From Candidatus Parcubacteria bacterium (GTDB lineage: Bacteria; Patescibacteriota; Minisyncoccia; Phycocordibacterales; UBA1006): a stretch of 12,808 nucleotides of DNA. The translations under genes were made by a program, and so were the position numbers. Below the pieces are notes generated by a model, which saw nothing but the letters and a program-made list of their open reading frames with translations, was not told the origin of the DNA and did no database searches. Shown here piece after piece: positions 1 through 7,398 of the stretch (the stretch's first letter is position 1; each line of letters begins with the position of its first letter). Where the stretch lies: contig JALVJP010000088.1 of the NCBI GenBank assembly GCA_027028225.1, positions 9,475-22,282 on the forward strand. The letters are read 5' to 3'.

Positions 1-369
1 ATTTCTAAAAATACAAATCGAAAAGATGAGAGCGAGAGCGATTCTTTCAAGAACCGAACCACCGTGCTTGAGGAGATGGAAGAGCTTGTATCTCCAAAAC
101 TTGAAAAACTTCTCGATCAACTTGTAGCGGAAAAGGATGTGAAGAATGTTTCGTCCAAAACTCACTTAGTAGGAAAACGAGAGAAGAAAAGGAAACGGGT
201 AGAGAGGAATGCGGGATCAGATACAAAGAAACTTCTCAGTTCTGTCATTTCTCGAGTTGTCAAGAAAGAAGAATCAGAAGAGAAGTTTAGGGGAAGTGAA
301 GAGGATAGCAAGTTTTCACAAACGAAGAGTGTTGAGGGTCTTGAGGACATTCTCCTTGAAGATAAGTGA
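1..369 (+). CDS. C-terminal part of an unrecognised charged protein (5' end outside window)
   Basis: The reading frame is open from the first base of the window to TGA at 367-369, giving 122 visible residues. The beginning probably lies upstream: there is no good start before GTG at 64 or ATG at 76, and neither has a -10 element or ribosome binding site in front of it. The visible part is rich in Lys, Glu, Arg and Ser, with a very basic stretch (KREKKRKRVER) and no predicted membrane segment, so it is probably a flexible or disordered tail with a short amphipathic stretch (EEMEELVSPKLEKLLDQLV) before it. I do not recognise a family. The next gene starts 19 nt after the stop with no clear promoter between, so the two may be co-transcribed. 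If GTG 64 were the true start, it would be a 101-residue protein. Confidence 0.6.
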   Translation: MSKNTNRKDESESDSFKNRTTVLEEMEELVSPKLEKLLDQLVAEKDVKNVSSKTHLVGKREKKRKRVERNAGSDTKKLLSSVISRVVKKEESEEKFRGSEEDSKFSQTKSVEGLEDILLEDK

Positions 370-388
370 TAAGTATTTTTCTATTCAT

Positions 389-1939
389 ATGTTTCGTCGT
401 GTTTTAACAAGTTTCATATTTCTCATATTTTGTACCCCATTTATTTCTTATGCAGACGCACACCTAAGAATTAATGAGGTTATGTATAACCCTGAGGGTG
501 CTGATGCTGATCATGAGTGGGTGGAGATTTACAACGATGGGAGTGAGAGCATTGATATTGCTTCATGGTATTTTTGGGAGGGAAATACCTACCATGGACT
601 CCATCCAGATGGATTTACCCAACTTACTCCTGGTGAGTACGCGCTCATTGTTCGTAATCTCGATACTGCTCGATCTGAACTTGGGTCATCAAACCGTTAC
701 ATAAAGGCAAGTTTTTCTCTCAACAATACGGGAGAGCTATTGAGAATTGCAAACAATGCAAAGGAGACGATTGATGAAGTTTCTTATCAGAGTGATTGGG
801 GAGGAAATGGGAACGGAAAGAGTTTACAATATATCGGTAGTTCATGGAGAGAAGGAAATCCTACACAAGGAAGAGAAAATACGATGAGTTCTTTTTTAGA
901 GAATAGCGGTGGTAATGAGAATACAAGTGTGGCAGGAGGAGATACTTCTCAAGAAGGAATTTCAAACGAGGAGAACATCTCTAAAGAGAATCCGACATAT
1001 CACATTTTCGTTCCAGTGTTTACACAAAAGCTTATCGCAGGAGAACGCTTTCGTGCAAAGATACGAGTAATGTATGGGGATGAGGAGGTTCATAACGGAC
1101 TCTTTCTCGTGAATTTTGGGGATGGAAATCTACTAAAAACTGGGAAATCAATGAAAGAGTATGTGAACCGTTACATCCATCCTGGAAGATACCTCTTTAT
1201 CTTTGAATACTATTCGTCTCCTTTCTTTTACCAGTATGGAGAGAAACCAGAAATTTTGTTTCGTAAGATTATTGATGTTGAAGAGCGAGAGACAATTACA
1301 ATTGAGAGGGTAAATCCGTATGATGGAGTGGTAATAAGAAACAGCGGTGGAAACGAGATAGAACTTGAAGGATGGTTTCTCCGATGGAATGGAAAGAAGT
1401 ATGCATTTCCTCATGCGACGATTCTCCTCCCTCACGAAATTTTACGAATTTCATTTAGGACTCTTGGCTTCTCTCCATATTCCACGAGAGAGAATAAGGT
1501 ATCTCTCGTGAGTAATGCGAATATCGTTGTATCGAGTTATCCCGTACCACCTTACTCTTCACAGCAGAAACGCGTAGTAAAAGCATCACATACGAAAGAT
1601 TTTCATGTTAAGCAAGAGAAAGTTGATATAGAGAAAGAGGATATTGATTTTGATTCACTTCCTACATTTTTCCAAGAGAGAGAAAGTAATCCATTCCAGG
1701 GCTATCTTGAGGAACACCCTGGAAAAGTGCTCGTTACCTTTTCACAAGAGGAAGATGAATATAGGAGAGAGAAGGAAATCTCTCCTTTTGGAACAATGCT
1801 TCCCCTCGCGATTGCTCTCTTTCTCACAGTGATTTCATCGCTCATTGCAATTGTTTCGTTCTCAAGGAGAGTAAGGAGTGAGGAAAAGGAAGAGAGAGAT
1901 TTGAACAATTACCATATAGAACTTGTTGATGAAGAGTAG
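389..1939 (+). CDS. Secreted, membrane-anchored lamin-tail-domain (LTD) protein
   Basis: 516 residues from ATG 389. The frame is open further upstream, but residues 1-24 from this ATG form a clean signal peptide (MFRRVLTSFIFLIF..., cleavage near YADA), which decides the start. Residues ~26-163 match a lamin tail domain: LRINEVMYNP, then HEWVEIYN, DIASWYF, GEYALIV and the closing GKSLQ. This immunoglobulin-like beta fold is found in bacterial surface proteins and nucleases. A low-complexity Asn/Gly/Glu linker follows (~164-202). Residues ~203-298 resemble a PKD/Ig-like module (VNFGDG at 241-246, then HPGRYLFIFEY). Residues ~302-384 look like a second, weaker LTD-like module (IELEGWFLRWNG). A transmembrane helix lies at ~469-491, followed by a charged cytoplasmic tail (RRVRSEEKEERD). 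It should therefore be exported and held by its C-terminus. No nuclease or protease residues are visible; adhesion or scaffolding is inferred. Confidence 0.8.
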   Translation: MFRRVLTSFIFLIFCTPFISYADAHLRINEVMYNPEGADADHEWVEIYNDGSESIDIASWYFWEGNTYHGLHPDGFTQLTPGEYALIVRNLDTARSELGSSNRYIKASFSLNNTGELLRIANNAKETIDEVSYQSDWGGNGNGKSLQYIGSSWREGNPTQGRENTMSSFLENSGGNENTSVAGGDTSQEGISNEENISKENPTYHIFVPVFTQKLIAGERFRAKIRVMYGDEEVHNGLFLVNFGDGNLLKTGKSMKEYVNRYIHPGRYLFIFEYYSSPFFYQYGEKPEILFRKIIDVEERETITIERVNPYDGVVIRNSGGNEIELEGWFLRWNGKKYAFPHATILLPHEILRISFRTLGFSPYSTRENKVSLVSNANIVVSSYPVPPYSSQQKRVVKASHTKDFHVKQEKVDIEKEDIDFDSLPTFFQERESNPFQGYLEEHPGKVLVTFSQEEDEYRREKEISPFGTMLPLAIALFLTVISSLIAIVSFSRRVRSEEKEERDLNNYHIELVDEE

Positions 1940-1941
1940 GG

Positions 1942-1995
1942 AATAGGAAAAGCGGATTTAGTTCGCATTTGCGAACTAAATCCGCTTTTCCTATT
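1942..1995. terminator. Perfect 26-bp inverted repeat, probable transcription terminator or insulator
   Basis: The arms 1942-1967 and 1970-1995 are exact reverse complements with only TT between them; the apex reads CGCATTTGCG. The repeat starts 3 nt after the TAG of the lamin-tail gene and ends about 25 bp before the next promoter. No T-run follows on the + strand, so it is not a textbook intrinsic terminator, though the right arm itself contains TTTTCC. It would fold the same way in transcripts from either strand. Confidence 0.65.
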
Positions 1996-2019
1996 GCAGA
2001 GAATATTAATTTGCTTCTT

Positions 2020-2048
2020 TTGCATATCCTCACAATACAGCGTATACT
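2020..2048 (+). promoter_or_regulatory. Promoter of the methyltransferase gene (leaderless)
   Basis: A TATACT -10 box at 2043-2048 has TTGCAT at 2020-2025 as a weak -35 box, with a 17-bp spacer. The ATG at 2057 begins 8 nt after the -10 box, which places the expected transcription start on or next to the start codon. Confidence 0.6.
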
Positions 2049-2056
2049 TACAGCGT

Positions 2057-2593
2057 ATGGAACAACAATTTTTAGATCCAAAGAATGTGATAGTGGTGTG
2101 CGATCTCAGTTCTGATGCACACATCGCTGACTTCGGCGCTGGTTCAGGAATTTACACTTTCCTTCTCGCAGAAGGATTTCCTATGAGAAAAATCTTCGCA
2201 ATCGATGTTCAAAAAGATTTGGTCGATCATATTCAGAAGGAGGCAGAAAAGCGTGGATTTCAAAATATCTATGCAGTCTGGGGAGATGTGGATGAGGTAA
2301 AAGGGAGTATGCTTCGCGATGAGTCTATCGATTGTGTTCTCATGGCGAATATCCTCTTTCAACTTGAAGACATTCCTACTGCAGTAAGAGAGGCGTATCG
2401 TATTCTCAAGCCAGGAGGAAAACTTCTCGTTGTTGATTGGAGTGAATCATTTGGCCATCTAGGTCCTCATCCAGATCATGTCGTGACAGAAGAGAATGCG
2501 AAACAACTCGTGGAAGAAGCTAATTTTCTCATTCAAAAAAGCTTTGACGATTTAGGAGCACATCATTATGTGTTTCTTGCTGAAAAGATGTAA
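2057..2593 (+). CDS. Class I SAM-dependent methyltransferase (UbiE/MenG-like fold, substrate unknown)
   Basis: 178 residues from ATG 2057. The frame extends up to 1994, but that would run into the hairpin and skip the promoter. The Rossmann-type SAM site is plain: motif I ADFGAGSGIYT at ~24-34, the acidic residue that binds the SAM ribose in FAID (D50), GD at 76-77, motif IV-like DCVLMANILFQL at ~92-103, and ILKPGGKLLVVDW at ~116-128. The length is typical of a minimal methyltransferase domain with almost no substrate-binding cap, and there is no signal peptide, so it is cytosolic. The best overall resemblance is to the methyltransferase 11/31 or UbiE-type groups. It is the only evident cytosolic enzyme in a block of surface genes. 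It could modify a small molecule, a lipid or a protein; the sequence does not say which. It has its own promoter. Confidence 0.82.
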   Translation: MEQQFLDPKNVIVVCDLSSDAHIADFGAGSGIYTFLLAEGFPMRKIFAIDVQKDLVDHIQKEAEKRGFQNIYAVWGDVDEVKGSMLRDESIDCVLMANILFQLEDIPTAVREAYRILKPGGKLLVVDWSESFGHLGPHPDHVVTEENAKQLVEEANFLIQKSFDDLGAHHYVFLAEKM

Positions 2594-2615: not shown

Positions 2616-2626
2616 TTATTTTGGTT

Positions 2627-3958
2627 ATGCTTAAAGAAGTTGGTTTCAAAAGAATTATCACAGTTTTTTTTGTTGTAGGAACAGTTATCGGTTTTCTTAT
2701 TTTTTCTGGGATGATTAAAGTAGGTGATAGTGCAAAGACAGCAAAAGGAAAAGTTGTTATATGGGGAACAATTCCGTATAATATCATTCACCCATATATA
2801 GAAAAAATATGGACGAAAGATGTTGAGGTGGTCTATTCAGTCAAGGATAAGAATACTTACGAGAGAGATCTTGTTGATGCACTTGCTGCAGGAAATGGAC
2901 CAGATCTCTTTATTATGTCCCATGAAGAGATCATACGAAATGCAGATAAAGCATTCGTTATTCCTTATACAAGTCTTCCTAAAGAAGGATTTCTCACTAC
3001 ATATGTAAAGGAGGCAGATATTTTTCTCACTAAATCTGGTATCCTCGCCATTCCCTTTTTTACAGATCCTCTTGTTCTCTACTATAATAAACAGCTCATA
3101 GCGTCTTCCTATCTCGTTTCCTATCCAAAGACATGGAAGGAGTTTGTTACTTTCTCTCAAAAAATTACAAAGCATGATGAGTATGGAACAATCGAAATTG
3201 CAGGTGCTGCAATGGGAACTTACAATAATGTAACTCATGCAAAGGATATTATTTCTACACTCTTTCTTCAAAATGGGAATTCTATTGTAGGAGATGATCA
3301 GGTGAGTGGAAAGAAGAAATCAATTCTCACTCTTACTGAAGAGAATTCAGAAGCCGCAAAGAATGCACTCCTGTTTTATAGTTCATTTCAAGATAAAGGA
3401 AATTCGCATTACTCTTGGAATGCTTCACTAGAAGATTCTCGCAACCAATTTGCTTCAGGTGATCTTGGACTTCTCTTTGATCGCGCGAGTCAACTTGAAT
3501 ATATGGCGAAGCGCAATCCAAATCTTAGTTTTGGAATTGCAGTTGTTCCACAGATAGAGGGAACATCCACAAAAAAAGTATTTGGGGAGATGTATGGGGT
3601 TGTTATCTCTAAACATACAAAGAATTTAAAAGCTGCAATTCTTGTTGCTTCACGACTCACAGGGAAAGATATTGTAAAAGGTTTTGTTGATAGTTTTCAT
3701 GTTGCTCCTGTTCGACTTGATCTCCTTACCTCAATTCCTGAGGATGCAAATAAGAGTGTTATCTATAAATCAGCGATTATTGCAGATGCATGGTTTGATC
3801 CTGATGCAAAGAATACTGATAGTGTATTCCGGAATATCGTTCGATCGATAAATGCAAAATCTATCGAAGTGCACCAGGCAATAAACAAACTTAATGCTGA
3901 TATTCAGAGCATTCTCGATACTACTGTTAATAAAACAGTAAATAAAACAGGTAAGTAG
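2627..3958 (+). CDS. Membrane-anchored extracellular solute-binding protein, family 1
   Basis: 443 residues from ATG 2627. A single N-terminal hydrophobic helix (~10-30) has no lipobox cysteine or clear signal peptidase site, so the protein is probably tethered by an uncleaved signal anchor. The rest follows the family 1 (maltose/sugar type) periplasmic-binding fold: VVIWGT beta strand at ~43-48, AAGNGPDLFIMSHE at ~87-100, the hinge-proximal GILAIPFFTDPLVLYYNKQL at ~138-157, TWKEF at ~169-173, GDLGLLFD at ~278-285, and FGIAVVPQI then FGEMYGVVIS at ~302-328. Family members normally deliver a sugar or peptide to an ABC permease. No permease or ATPase gene lies within 2.6 kb upstream or anywhere downstream in the window, so the ligand and partner are unknown. 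The C-terminus ends in a short Thr/Asn/Lys repeat (TVNKTVNKTGK). A sensory or scavenging role is as possible as transport. Confidence 0.8.
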   Translation: MLKEVGFKRIITVFFVVGTVIGFLIFSGMIKVGDSAKTAKGKVVIWGTIPYNIIHPYIEKIWTKDVEVVYSVKDKNTYERDLVDALAAGNGPDLFIMSHEEIIRNADKAFVIPYTSLPKEGFLTTYVKEADIFLTKSGILAIPFFTDPLVLYYNKQLIASSYLVSYPKTWKEFVTFSQKITKHDEYGTIEIAGAAMGTYNNVTHAKDIISTLFLQNGNSIVGDDQVSGKKKSILTLTEENSEAAKNALLFYSSFQDKGNSHYSWNASLEDSRNQFASGDLGLLFDRASQLEYMAKRNPNLSFGIAVVPQIEGTSTKKVFGEMYGVVISKHTKNLKAAILVASRLTGKDIVKGFVDSFHVAPVRLDLLTSIPEDANKSVIYKSAIIADAWFDPDAKNTDSVFRNIVRSINAKSIEVHQAINKLNADIQSILDTTVNKTVNKTGK

Positions 3959-3991: not shown

Positions 3992-6364
3992 ATGAAGAAA
4001 TTTATTTTTAGTATTTTCTTTTTCACTCTTTTCCTCCCTAATTGGACATATGCAAGTGATGTTGTGGTGAGTCCTCACTTTAATGTAGATGCTAACAGCG
4101 TTAAAATTTCTGCTCTGTTTAACAATAGTCCGGTATCTATTACTTTAGAGAATGGGTGTAATTACCCTATCATAAGGAATGATTCTGTATCTGTTGGGGC
4201 GATGGAGAGTTATTCTCTTTCAATGAATTCAATTAATTTTACAAGTTGTAGTGATGTAAGGTTTACTGTTGGTGGTGTCGATAAGGTATTTGCTTTGCGT
4301 GATCTTCCTGGATATAGTGATGTTATTTCCTTTATAAACAATCACTCTAATAATAACAACTCTCAATCAAGCCAATCCGGCGGAACACAAAGCAATGATT
4401 TTATGGATACTCCGTATTTTGCTTTCGAGGGTAACGATAATGAGCATTGGGCAATCATGGCAAGATTCCATGGAGATCAATCAGTTTCTGTTTATCTTGA
4501 GGGTAATGGGGGAGGTATGACATCAAGCGGTTGTTCTTATCGACTTGCATTTGATCAGCATATTGATGATGGGTTTCTTGTGATGTTTTGGATAGATAAG
4601 AATTACAATCTTACAAATTGTTCTAGAGTTAAGTTTATAAGTAATATTGGTGGGAGTACTCACACAAAAGTTTTCCCTTTGTCTCAACTCAGTCACTATA
4701 GTGAAGCTCTAGCTCATTATTCTGGGAGCTCTCAGCAAGGCGGTTCTAATGCTAACGGAAATACTAATCAGTTGTTAACAACAAGTTACGTTGGTTTACC
4801 GACAGCAACTCTTAAACAGACAAACACAAACCCGAAACACTGGTTCTATGAGATAAACTTAAAATTTAATCGATCTCGAAATGAAGATGTATATCTTATC
4901 GCCCAACGAACACCAGAGGATGGAGGGCAACAGGAATATACGACTCTTTGTCATATTCCGTCAGGAAATAGTTCTCCTATAACGATTTCCTATCCAGATG
5001 GTACTAATCACAATTGTGATAGTTCTCCTATTGATAATGATTTCTTTAGAGCTGGGAATGATTATGTTTTTTATCTTTCCAACCAAGCAAATGGTGTTTT
5101 GAATTTAGATAGTGATATGACCTTGATTCCTCAAGATAGGGAAATTTCACAAAATTCTTCATTCTCTTCAGGTAATGGTAATAGTGTATCTTTTGATATT
5201 GGAGAATCATCTTTTGCGCGTTCTGTAAAAGATGGAAAGGAGATATGGGGTCTTCGTATTGTATCTCAAAGTGGGGGAATGATACAACGACAGAGAGATG
5301 AAACAATTTACCTCATTCTCGCTGAATCTGCTCAAGGAGGGGTTGGGAAGAGGAAAGCTCTTTGTGAGTTTAAAGGGGGATCTGGATTGAATAGTTTTTC
5401 TGGTCCAAATTTTCCAGGTTGTTATGTAAGGGATAGTCATAAGTTATTTAACTTTGACGGTGATGATTATGGAATTATTGACATTATAGAACAGGGAAAA
5501 GATTATTCAGTATTCTTTAGTTCCGATTTGAATGGGAGTAATGTTATCTCCTCAGTGAAGAGTATCGGAACAGCGATTCCAAGAACAAGTATTGTTGTCG
5601 ATCCAGACATTAGTGTCGAAATAAAACAAGATACCAATGGTGGATATTACTATCATATTGAGGGGGATGTTAAAAAAGACCACCCTGCTAATTTTCCTCA
5701 AAATACAGAACTCCACTTTGATATCCTTAATGAAAATCAAATAACTACCACGATTTCTGATATAACACCAAATCCTGTTTTCTATAGGAAAGGTGTTCAT
5801 TTCGCACTTGATACTCCAATTCTTGATGAAGGAAATTATGCACTTCATATAAAAACTTCTAAAGGAACAATAAATAGTATCGATCTCCAAACAATTCCTC
5901 TCCCGCGAATAGGACAAGGTGGAAATTCACAAACAAATGTGGGTACGGCAGGTGGCAATACTAATCAGTATAATGGAGTAAATTCTCTTGCTTCTGGGAA
6001 TGATCCATATTCTGACTATAAGGGAATAGGAAATGATGATGAACAACTCGTTCCACTTGATTGTGGTTACAATTTAGGGAAGGGGGGGAGGATGTGTGTG
6101 TTGAGTGATTTCATCCGTATGATTCGAAGAGTTATAAGTTATATTTTTATTATAACAGTTCCGATCGCGGCAATTGTGTTTGCTTATGCTGGTTTTCAAC
6201 TTCTCTTTTCTGGTGGAAATACTACAAAGAGAGATGCAGCAAAACGTGCAGTAAAGAATCTCCTTATAGGGATAGCGGTATTCCTCCTCGCATGGGTAGG
6301 AATAAATCTTCTTATCTCAACGCTTGGGATTCAATCTGATTTCAATATCTTTTTCGGAAAGTAG
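3992..6364 (+). CDS. Large secreted multi-module protein with C-terminal VirB2/TrbC-like pilin domain
   Basis: 790 residues. A signal peptide (MKKFIFSIFFFTLFL..., cleavage near YAS at 20-22) precedes five beta-rich modules at about 23-115, 138-243, 262-380, 398-530 and 531-638, joined by Asn/Ser/Gly/Gln-rich linkers. Modules 1-4 each hold one cysteine pair (C56/C86, C181/C210, C320/C342, C458/C477). Modules 2-4 share Trp (W153, W284, W419) followed by a [VI]YL strand, and modules 1 and 2 both end in an L-x-x-Y-S pattern, so they look like diverged copies. Residues 686-790 are a different domain: LVPLDCG with C691/C702, membrane helices at ~714-737 and ~757-778, and the loop SGGNTTKRDAAKRAVKN. 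This is the two-helix layout of CPR pilin-like conjugal-transfer proteins. The fusion would put a long ectodomain on a pilin-like anchor. A role as adhesin, tip protein or cell-wall spacer is inferred. I do not recognise the ectodomain family. Confidence 0.8.
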   Translation: MKKFIFSIFFFTLFLPNWTYASDVVVSPHFNVDANSVKISALFNNSPVSITLENGCNYPIIRNDSVSVGAMESYSLSMNSINFTSCSDVRFTVGGVDKVFALRDLPGYSDVISFINNHSNNNNSQSSQSGGTQSNDFMDTPYFAFEGNDNEHWAIMARFHGDQSVSVYLEGNGGGMTSSGCSYRLAFDQHIDDGFLVMFWIDKNYNLTNCSRVKFISNIGGSTHTKVFPLSQLSHYSEALAHYSGSSQQGGSNANGNTNQLLTTSYVGLPTATLKQTNTNPKHWFYEINLKFNRSRNEDVYLIAQRTPEDGGQQEYTTLCHIPSGNSSPITISYPDGTNHNCDSSPIDNDFFRAGNDYVFYLSNQANGVLNLDSDMTLIPQDREISQNSSFSSGNGNSVSFDIGESSFARSVKDGKEIWGLRIVSQSGGMIQRQRDETIYLILAESAQGGVGKRKALCEFKGGSGLNSFSGPNFPGCYVRDSHKLFNFDGDDYGIIDIIEQGKDYSVFFSSDLNGSNVISSVKSIGTAIPRTSIVVDPDISVEIKQDTNGGYYYHIEGDVKKDHPANFPQNTELHFDILNENQITTTISDITPNPVFYRKGVHFALDTPILDEGNYALHIKTSKGTINSIDLQTIPLPRIGQGGNSQTNVGTAGGNTNQYNGVNSLASGNDPYSDYKGIGNDDEQLVPLDCGYNLGKGGRMCVLSDFIRMIRRVISYIFIITVPIAAIVFAYAGFQLLFSGGNTTKRDAAKRAVKNLLIGIAVFLLAWVGINLLISTLGIQSDFNIFFGK

Positions 6365-6625: not shown

Positions 6626-6635
6626 TAATTAATAT
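6607..6635 (+). repeat. Direct repeat TAATTAATAT flanking the -10 box
   Basis: TAATTAATAT occurs at 6607-6616 and again at 6626-6635, starting 19 bp apart. The second copy runs into the ATG at 6634. The TAATTA core is itself palindromic. The position would suit an operator, but repeats this A+T-rich can arise by chance. Confidence 0.4.
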
Positions 6636-6975
6636 GAAAAAAATTGTTAGTGGAATTATCGTAAGTGTTCCTGTGTTTGCTTTTGCGCAAGGAGCAGATG
6701 CGACAAGTATTCTTCAAAAAATATCTGACTTGTTGAGTGTTTCTATTCCTATTGTTATTACGGCTGCACTCCTCTTCTTTATTTTTGGGGTAGTAAGGTA
6801 TGTAATTGCGGGGAATCCAGATGATAAAGATAAAGCAAAAGGTATTATTACGAAAGGTATTATAGGACTCTTTGTTATACTATCTGTATGGGGACTTATT
6901 GCTGTTATCCAACGAACATTCGGTATTGGAAATCCACAAATTACTAGTGAAAACTTACCTAGTGTTCAGTTCTAA
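6634..6975 (+). CDS. Small VirB2/TrbC-like pilin protein
   Basis: 113 residues. The signal peptide (MKKIVSGIIVSVPVFAFAQ, likely cleavage AFA-Q or AQG-A) leaves a mature protein of about 95 residues. Two membrane helices, ~38-59 and ~74-93, are separated by a short polar loop, GNPDDKDKAKG (60-70). This is the layout of VirB2/TrbC pilins and of the CPR pilin-like conjugal-transfer families, and the loop resembles that of the pilin domain ending the preceding gene (GNTTKRDAAKR). VirB2-type proteins are the main subunits of type IV secretion pili. A structural role in a surface filament is the likely job, but no VirB4, VirB6 or coupling ATPase is in the window. It ends in a soluble tail (GNPQITSENLPSVQF) and has its own promoter and terminator. 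Confidence 0.75.
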   Translation: MKKIVSGIIVSVPVFAFAQGADATSILQKISDLLSVSIPIVITAALLFFIFGVVRYVIAGNPDDKDKAKGIITKGIIGLFVILSVWGLIAVIQRTFGIGNPQITSENLPSVQF

Positions 6976-7038: not shown

Positions 7039-7398
7039 ATGTTCTATCATTTTTTCTATGAATACATTGCAATTCCTGTTGCGCATGCAGATGGACTTAC
7101 TCAATTCCTTGCGAAGGTGAATAGACATATTATCAACCCAATTATTCTCGTCCTTTTTGCAGTTGCTTTCGTTCAGTTTTTCTGGGGTCTCTTTGCTTTT
7201 TTGAAAGCGAAGCAAGAAGAGAAAGATCTCACAGAAGGAAAACAGCATATACTATGGGGAATTATAGGTATGGCGATTATGGTATCTGTCTTTGGTATTA
7301 TGGGACTTCTCACAGGAACATTAGGACTTAGCGATGTTTCTGGAAGCTTTCGAAAGAATGGAGGAGGAATGGGAGATGTATCTGCACTCCTCAAATAA
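7039..7398 (+). CDS. Small VirB2-like two-helix pilin-family protein
   Basis: 119 residues. A short signal peptide (MFYHFFYEYIAIPVAHA, likely cleavage AHA-D) is followed by a brief amphipathic stretch. Helix one is at ~32-55, with a charged loop KAKQEEKDLTEGKQ (56-69) and helix two at ~71-94. The tail is soluble and Gly-rich (RKNGGGMGDVSALLK). The loop-and-helix order matches the neighbouring pilin, but the sequence is clearly different, so the two are distant family members or distinct subunits. A structural subunit or inner-membrane component of the same surface apparatus is inferred. The gene has its own promoter and shares a terminator with dnaE. Confidence 0.65.
   Translation: MFYHFFYEYIAIPVAHADGLTQFLAKVNRHIINPIILVLFAVAFVQFFWGLFAFLKAKQEEKDLTEGKQHILWGIIGMAIMVSVFGIMGLLTGTLGLSDVSGSFRKNGGGMGDVSALLK

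Follow-up and report, generated by a model that had tools for sequence, protein, structure and literature searches.

A pilin-like hairpin carrying a large, lineage-variable ectodomain at a conserved pilin position in Patescibacteria

What is a long modular ectodomain doing on the first pilin gene of a Patescibacteria pilin array? The question is raised by a stretch of 12,808 nucleotides (hereafter the window) from Candidatus Parcubacteria bacterium, GenBank assembly GCA_027028225.1, contig JALVJP010000088.1 (G000:C88:9475-22282 in our numbering; the genome comprises 557 kb and is 81% complete). Positions 3992-6364 form a single uninterrupted open reading frame (ORF) of 790 aa; coordinates without a contig or locus label are window positions, and all window features described here lie on the + strand. 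A preliminary description of the window had inferred for the product a pilin-like anchor that displays a large ectodomain. Our analysis supports this view: the C-terminal hairpin scores above the cut-off of a Pfam pilin family, its predicted orientation points the ectodomain to the outside, and display of the ectodomain on the cell surface from this hairpin is very probable. Moreover, comparison with related loci makes it highly likely that the ectodomain is a lineage-swappable part mounted on a conserved pilin position.

The hairpin (6101..6322) matches the Pfam family T4SS_pilin (PF18895; T4SS, type IV secretion system) over residues 710-769 with 33.9 bits and E 3.4e-8 (cut-off 26.6 bits), and the last 115 residues alone reach 38.1 bits. 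In models of both the full chain and the domain alone, helices 704-738 and 744-777 flank the basic loop SGGNTTKRDAAKR, just as the preliminary description had read them. The motif LVPLDCGY...MC (6047..6118) contains C691 and C702; both cysteines, together with the GY after the first one, are among 20 hairpin positions that are invariant in 10 genus sequences. The match is not a product of chance, since the hairpin is 39-80% identical to those of nine genus relatives. Alignment A2 comprises 42 hairpins, every one of which matches PF18895; 26 also match PF04956 at E up to 1. The NCBIfam model of the Mbov_0395 pilin-like family (NF045849) gave a weak match over the whole hairpin (22.3 bits, E 7.7e-5), below its cut-off of 40 bits.

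Membrane-inserted VirB2 has its N-terminus out, the basic loop in and the C-terminus out, and by the positive-inside rule the same topology is predicted for our hairpin. With the basic loop expected on the cytoplasmic side, the hairpin would point outward at both ends, so that fusions should be possible at both ends, as is observed. The signal peptide recognised earlier (residues 1-21, 3992..4054) looks Sec-like by eye: MKKFIFSIFFFTLFLPNWTYA is followed by SD, with cleavage likewise placed by eye after A21, and the model has a helix at residues 2-13. A type IV prepilin has a class III signal and, after it, a single N-terminal helix. By eye, the window protein shows no signal of that type; its signal sequence is an ordinary hydrophobic one and its membrane helices are C-terminal. 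Therein it differs from the type IV pilins of Saccharibacteria, which the available part of one paper (PMC12206443) describes as surface filaments of episymbionts.

Within the genus, the fusion is genuine and conserved. A whole-protein match was obtained in 11 of the 12 genus genomes, and 10 of the 12, our own included, have the long fusion; in G002 the match is limited to a small pilin at a contig edge, and G007 is the genome without a match. The C-terminal domain is thus not always a separate gene, a possibility that the preliminary description had raised: in each of the nine relatives a single ORF of 319-534 aa ends with the hairpin. The hairpin itself is conserved, while the part before it ranges from about 210 to 685 residues, and the whole chains are 23-29% identical to the window protein, the closest relative excepted. 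This relative lacks modules 1 and 2 (see below) and matches residues 261-789 at 64%, and in the shortest fusion (319 aa) a single copy of the core module was detected.

It is important to note that the neighbourhood is conserved as well. Two small stand-alone genes, which had also been taken for pilins, lie 3' of the fusion in all ten genus loci (in the nine relatives by tblastn). This assignment holds for the first one (6634..6975, 113 aa), with 43.6 bits for PF18895, whereas the second (7039..7398, 119 aa) stays just under the cut-off, with 23.9 of 26.6 bits. On the 5' side, a solute-binding protein (SBP) of the SBP_bac_1 type (2621..3958; PF01547, 93.8 bits) is the conserved upstream partner of the pilin position and precedes the fusion in 9/10 genus loci. 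Both the SBP and the S-adenosylmethionine-dependent methyltransferase that lies before it (1994..2593) are found there in 8/10 (7/9 relatives); in G008 the contig ends inside the SBP. The SBPs of the genus relatives have an N-terminal hydrophobic stretch.

To place the fusion among ordinary pilin genes, we compared a profile of the ten genus hairpins with 148 genomes of the order, of which 126 contain a match with E no higher than 1e-12. The 125 best matches listed, two of them from the own genus, were typed, and 120 of the other 123 regions were analysed; the census omits G081, G146 and G162 as well as one matched genome without a listed row. The N-terminal lengths were counted from the first ATG, GTG or TTG and are upper bounds, and upstream genes were sought within 3 kb only, a distance within which some contigs end. 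Frames of fewer than 200 aa account for 97 of the 125 best matches, four have 200-249 aa, and 24 have at least 250 aa (two of the latter in the own genus). The window protein shares with these T4SS_pilin proteins a score over the curated cut-off, a signal peptide, two helices, a short basic loop and two adjoining small pilin-like genes, but unlike most of them it has an ectodomain and linker of together some 660 residues N-terminal to the hairpin.

Outside the genus, 89 of the 120 genomes have an SBP homologue immediately upstream of the best-matching hairpin and in the same orientation; 81 of these loci also contain a methyltransferase homologue before the SBP, and 65 contain GyrA. The part before the hairpin comprises fewer than 60 aa in 70 of the 89, 60-119 aa in 13 and at least 120 aa in six, in which the hairpin match starts at residue 602 (G015), 367 (G145), 293 (G053), 189 (G050), 147 (G164) and 136 (G021). 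Among the other 31 loci of the census, 27 have fewer than 120 aa before the hairpin and four have at least 120. Since the SBP-linked position is shared with stand-alone pilins, the fusion and an ordinary stand-alone pilin are positional orthologues. In most other genera sampled, the hairpin is a separate gene (the 70 short loci among the 89). Judged from these sequences, the ectodomain is an addition found in few lineages besides this genus, and the fusion is a lineage-specific elaboration of an ordinary pilin gene. Beyond the census, extended hairpins behind an SBP occur in L113, L117 and G014, and L119 and L141 carry extended hairpins, too.

The domains mounted on the hairpin differ from genus to genus. 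At the same locus, L113 combines a Big_7 bacterial immunoglobulin (Ig) domain (44.7 bits, cut-off 24.1) and PF18895 (42.0 bits) in one chain of 231 aa. G164 has a Dickkopf-type Cys-rich domain (Dickkopf_N, 31.0 bits, cut-off 25); its hairpin is found by the genus profile at E 8.1e-14, yet gave no PF18895 row in the Pfam scan. G145, G053 and G020 show sub-cut-off matches to Pur_ac_phosph_N, which we take to be an FN3-like domain, and the extension of G050 consists by eye of three short repeats; the remaining extensions are modules without a named domain. Ectodomains of different genera mostly give no match with one another, the best pairs being G063/G134 (E 8.6e-5) and G053/G020 (E 0.0014), both in a small database. 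In a tree of 102 hairpins (104 columns, many open forks) the extended state, present in 19 rows, needs 8 changes vs 17.7 in shuffles, and the well-supported branches force at least 4 changes. It is likely that the extensions arose by recurrent gain, or by gain and loss, rather than from a single origin.

Domains are found on the C-terminal side of the hairpin as well. One chain of G075 (L235:454-1596) has PF18895 (30.7 bits) followed by an SLT lytic transglycosylase (48.7 bits, cut-off 21.3). SLT transglycosylases represent the VirB1-type activity of classical T4SSs, and by this analogy the fusion would fit a link of the hairpin family to wall penetration. In G067 (L195:3306-4955), InlB B-repeat domains follow a hairpin just under the PF18895 cut-off, and a 1627-aa chain of G026 (L069:3391-8271) has InlB B-repeat and Ig matches before PF18895, together with an M64 peptidase match barely over its cut-off.

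The ectodomain of the window protein consists of the roughly 610 beta-rich residues noted before, which fall into five modules over residues 22-632, their strands being read from a poor full-chain model. They are followed by a linker to about residue 685, which is rich in Gly, Asn and Gln (residues 633-685, 5888..6046; predicted local distance difference test (pLDDT) below 50 in 633-700). Module 1 (residues 22-115, 4055..4336, Cys pair 56/86) and module 2 (residues 137-245, 4400..4726, Cys pair 181/210), the latter also delimited by the structure model and its Cys positions, are a detectable duplication with 29% identity over 103 columns (blastp, E 1.6e-7 in a database of the five modules). 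Another detectable duplication is formed by module 3 (residues 259-388, 4766..5155, Cys pair 320/342) and module 4 (residues 396-533, 5177..5590, Cys pair 458/477). The latter, supported by blastp and profile searches, is the core module, and module 3 is a second copy of it, its residues 287-372 matching the core-module profile with 30.2 bits. Module 5 (residues 538-632, 5603..5887) has seven predicted strands in the model (block pLDDT 48-78) and no Cys. The ten Cys residues of the protein thus make up one pair in each of modules 1-4 plus C691/C702.

The core module is present in 10/10 genus fusions. Its profile matched 12 places in 20 genomes of the family at E up to 0.001, all of them in this genus and in frames of fusion length, and at this threshold no place outside the genus fusions. 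Among the 148 order genomes it was found only in the own genome and one genus mate, apart from a weak match in G081 (E 0.002). Sequence searches of the PDB yielded chance matches only (receptor helices, antibody and fibronectin chains). With the full model, itself poor, Foldseek returned chains of Ig-like, FN3-like and MG-like domains and the Bap BSP domain, with template modelling (TM) scores of 0.05-0.31 among the 50 matches listed; these model-based matches support nothing beyond a string of beta domains. A PHROGs search with the fusion protein gave no match at E up to 0.1, and a scan for promoters and terminators did not rise above chance level.

The machinery to which a T4SS pilin would belong is widespread in the genus: a VirB4-type ATPase exceeds the cut-off in 10/12 genomes, and so does PrgI in 10/12. 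In our own genome the VirB4-type ATPase lies on C15 (85.2 bits), and PrgI gave a weak partial match at a contig end (17.5 bits, under the cut-off). The C-terminal end of a VirD4-type coupling ATPase that starts upstream of the window occupies 1..369, upstream of the pilin cluster (TrwB_AAD_bind, 41 bits on L054:8011-9474).

Our favoured account, to which we assign a probability of roughly 0.55, is that of a cell-surface protein whose gene is the first in a conserved array of Patescibacteria pilins and which serves as a minor subunit of a pilus or channel for partner contact. The chain would be exported by Sec, and the PF18895 hairpin would then reside in the membrane with its basic loop inside, the modular ectodomain and the C-terminus facing outward. 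Most likely, the hairpin would co-assemble with the two small pilins into a T4SS-like pilus or channel of Patescibacteria. Since these pilins stand beside 10/10 fusions, a minor subunit that co-assembles via its hairpin is the simplest model. A minor, tip or base position would be expected because a coat of such chains on every subunit appears sterically hard. The 53-residue linker, which is presumably flexible, may let the stalk of five beta-rich modules, four of them with a Cys pair, reach the partner cell. The sequences show the ectodomain to be the replaceable part: its length and module number vary in the genus, and other genera mount other domains on the hairpin at the same locus. For incorporation of the hairpin protein as a minor subunit, taken by itself, the arguments for and against seem to us to balance, and we would give even odds to contact or adhesion being the task of the ectodomain.

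Several observations weigh against this account. The window protein shares the two-helix layout of the VirB2/TrbC pilins (PF04956; R388 TrwL), but it is far larger, is not near virB4 in the assemblies examined, and reaches 12.2 bits for PF04956, under the cut-off of 27.9. An hhalign comparison with four TrwL/VirB2-type proteins brought both helices into register with a score of 13.9 that is not significant (E 0.094; comparison scores: F TraA 12.7, AtpE 8.5, AtpI 8.9, reversed profile 10.6-11.5). With the hairpin as query, Foldseek yielded 26 matches, all with E above 0.001 and none to a VirB2, TrbC or TraA pilin, and VIA-align yielded generic helical pairs only. The absence of VirB2-type chains from the matches listed by the two programs excludes nothing. 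The strand assignment rests on the full-chain model, which is poor (pLDDT 53.9, predicted TM-score (pTM) 0.29), and a single clade of extended pilins has p 0.057, so that a single origin is not rejected at 0.05. In the nine fusion-bearing genus genomes that have a VirB4 match, it lies on another contig (eight over the cut-off, G011 weak); since the genus assemblies are fragmented, this shows only that VirB4 is not close by. G010 (99% complete, about 6 contigs) has the fusion and the pilins without a VirB4 or PrgI match. A protein search with a VirB4 of the genus found none in G010 or in G011, the latter (92% complete) having PrgI. If the loss in G010 is real, either the fusion acts there without this T4SS or the genes are too diverged for detection. 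Finally, neither methyltransferase nor SBP lies upstream of the fusion in G011, where a TypA/BipA gene takes their place.

The situation in G010 and the remoteness of VirB4 would suit a static surface anchor, in which the hairpin only holds the ectodomain as a receptor, an S-layer-like element or a stalk and never enters a filament or secretion channel. A plain anchor would also explain why hairpins of this family bear such different N- and C-terminal domains (Ig, Dickkopf-type, InlB B-repeat, SLT). Yet the conservation of the hairpin, with its invariant Cys pair and polar residues, exceeds what an anchor appears to need. Moreover, the small pilins accompany every genus fusion, and most orthologues (70/89) have no cargo to hold. 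We regard the static anchor as rather unlikely, and the minor pilus or channel subunit remains our preferred reading.

Quite improbable, in our view, is a complex of the fusion, the orphan SBP and the pilins for uptake or capture, i.e. nutrient or DNA scavenging, instead of a contact organelle. The SBP lies directly upstream both in the 89 order genomes and in nine genus loci, the SBPs of the relatives have their hydrophobic stretch, and our own genome has the VirD4-type ATPase upstream. However, the SBP is retained where the genera differ in their ectodomains, a pattern more in line with a partner that changes than with one fixed substrate. In G011 the fusion occurs with no SBP upstream, and no transporter genes were recognised in the window. 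An assembly chimera or annotation artefact that joined a secreted protein and a pilin could be suspected because the hairpin is a separate gene in most other genera sampled. This is refuted by the nine relatives and has practically no probability left: in ten genus genomes the gene is fused, and the two small pilins follow it each time. The ectodomain and hairpin parts are also alike in base composition by codon position (G+C content at third positions (GC3) 0.24 and 0.31, respectively).

In published work, VirB2-like pilins of Patescibacteria are well represented. According to the available part of a survey (PMC12102498), those of the PF18895 type form arrays of 2-11 genes (441 arrays), and VirB2-like pilins occur in 1,948 assemblies that also hold VirB4. 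Most of the genomes that have VirB2 homologues lack VirB1, and among 3,035 Patescibacteria genomes the survey detected no adhesin of the PrgB kind. The same part of the paper does not mention a pilin fused to an ectodomain. T4SS pilins are reported as essential in S. epibionticum by transposon sequencing in the text available of PMC10633639. In methanogen-parasitic Paceibacteria, T4SS pilins and Ig-like folds appear, under separate gene numbers, among highly expressed unknown genes (PMC10936435, available part). Our literature search, by title and start of abstract in open-access papers (most subscription papers and preprints lie outside it), found none on pilin-ectodomain fusions. PrgB-type adhesins and VirB5 tip proteins can be compared with the window protein by its proposed role, i.e. 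contact with a partner cell at or near a T4SS; unlike them, it joins an ectodomain and a pilin-like hairpin in one chain. Its striking feature is that ectodomains are swapped at a single conserved pilin position, and we see in it a modular platform on a pilin-like hairpin.

Some further observations concern the surroundings of such genes. The order GyrA - methyltransferase - SBP - pilin, with an orphan-looking SBP, is conserved (L161-L280). In our own genome and G001 (window 1-1939, L054, L056), the VirD4-type ATPase and a protein with a lamin-tail domain replace the gyrA that is usually upstream. In L057:7039-9863, with like stretches in L058-L062 and L064, two oppositely oriented genes of about 370-460 aa and 125-180 aa are followed by a second pilin array; the longer of the two has no Pfam match in L057. 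No such second array is found among the four PF18895 matches of our own, 81%-complete genome. C-terminally extended hairpin genes lie near the gene of a Clp-type AAA+ ATPase in G075, G093, G143, G103 and G031, an assignment made by Pfam for G093 and G075 and by look-alike N-termini for G143, G103 and G031. Our own genome has a second long protein of the PF18895 type, with 708 aa and a large N-terminal part (G000:C38; L055:1429-3552), whose hairpin at residues 414-467 scores 16.1 bits, under the PF18895 cut-off. Its C-terminal part of about 240 aa shows a His...HWH pattern and looks by eye like an M15-type peptidase. The C-terminal ends of the L055, L196 and L267 proteins can all be read in this way by eye, but Pfam and NCBIfam gave no support, nor did the PDB (L055 and residues 170-389 of L267).

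Taken together, our results suggest a platform for touching other cells in a tiny, probably host-dependent bacterium. For partner recognition by episymbiotic Patescibacteria, a pilin-family chain whose ectodomain can be exchanged offers a concrete and testable candidate for the contact protein that is still missing. Natural controls are provided by the orthologues that stand alone at this locus, and comparison of the ectodomains between genomes may supply markers of host range. A wider and more doubtful idea is that Patescibacteria use the T4SS-pilin hairpin as a general fusion socket on their T4SS-like organelle, with lineage-specific contact domains N-terminal and wall-cutting or surface-repeat domains C-terminal, so that one family would replace separate VirB5/PrgB and VirB1 proteins. 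If this were true, a new ectodomain on the first pilin of the array would bring about a change of host.

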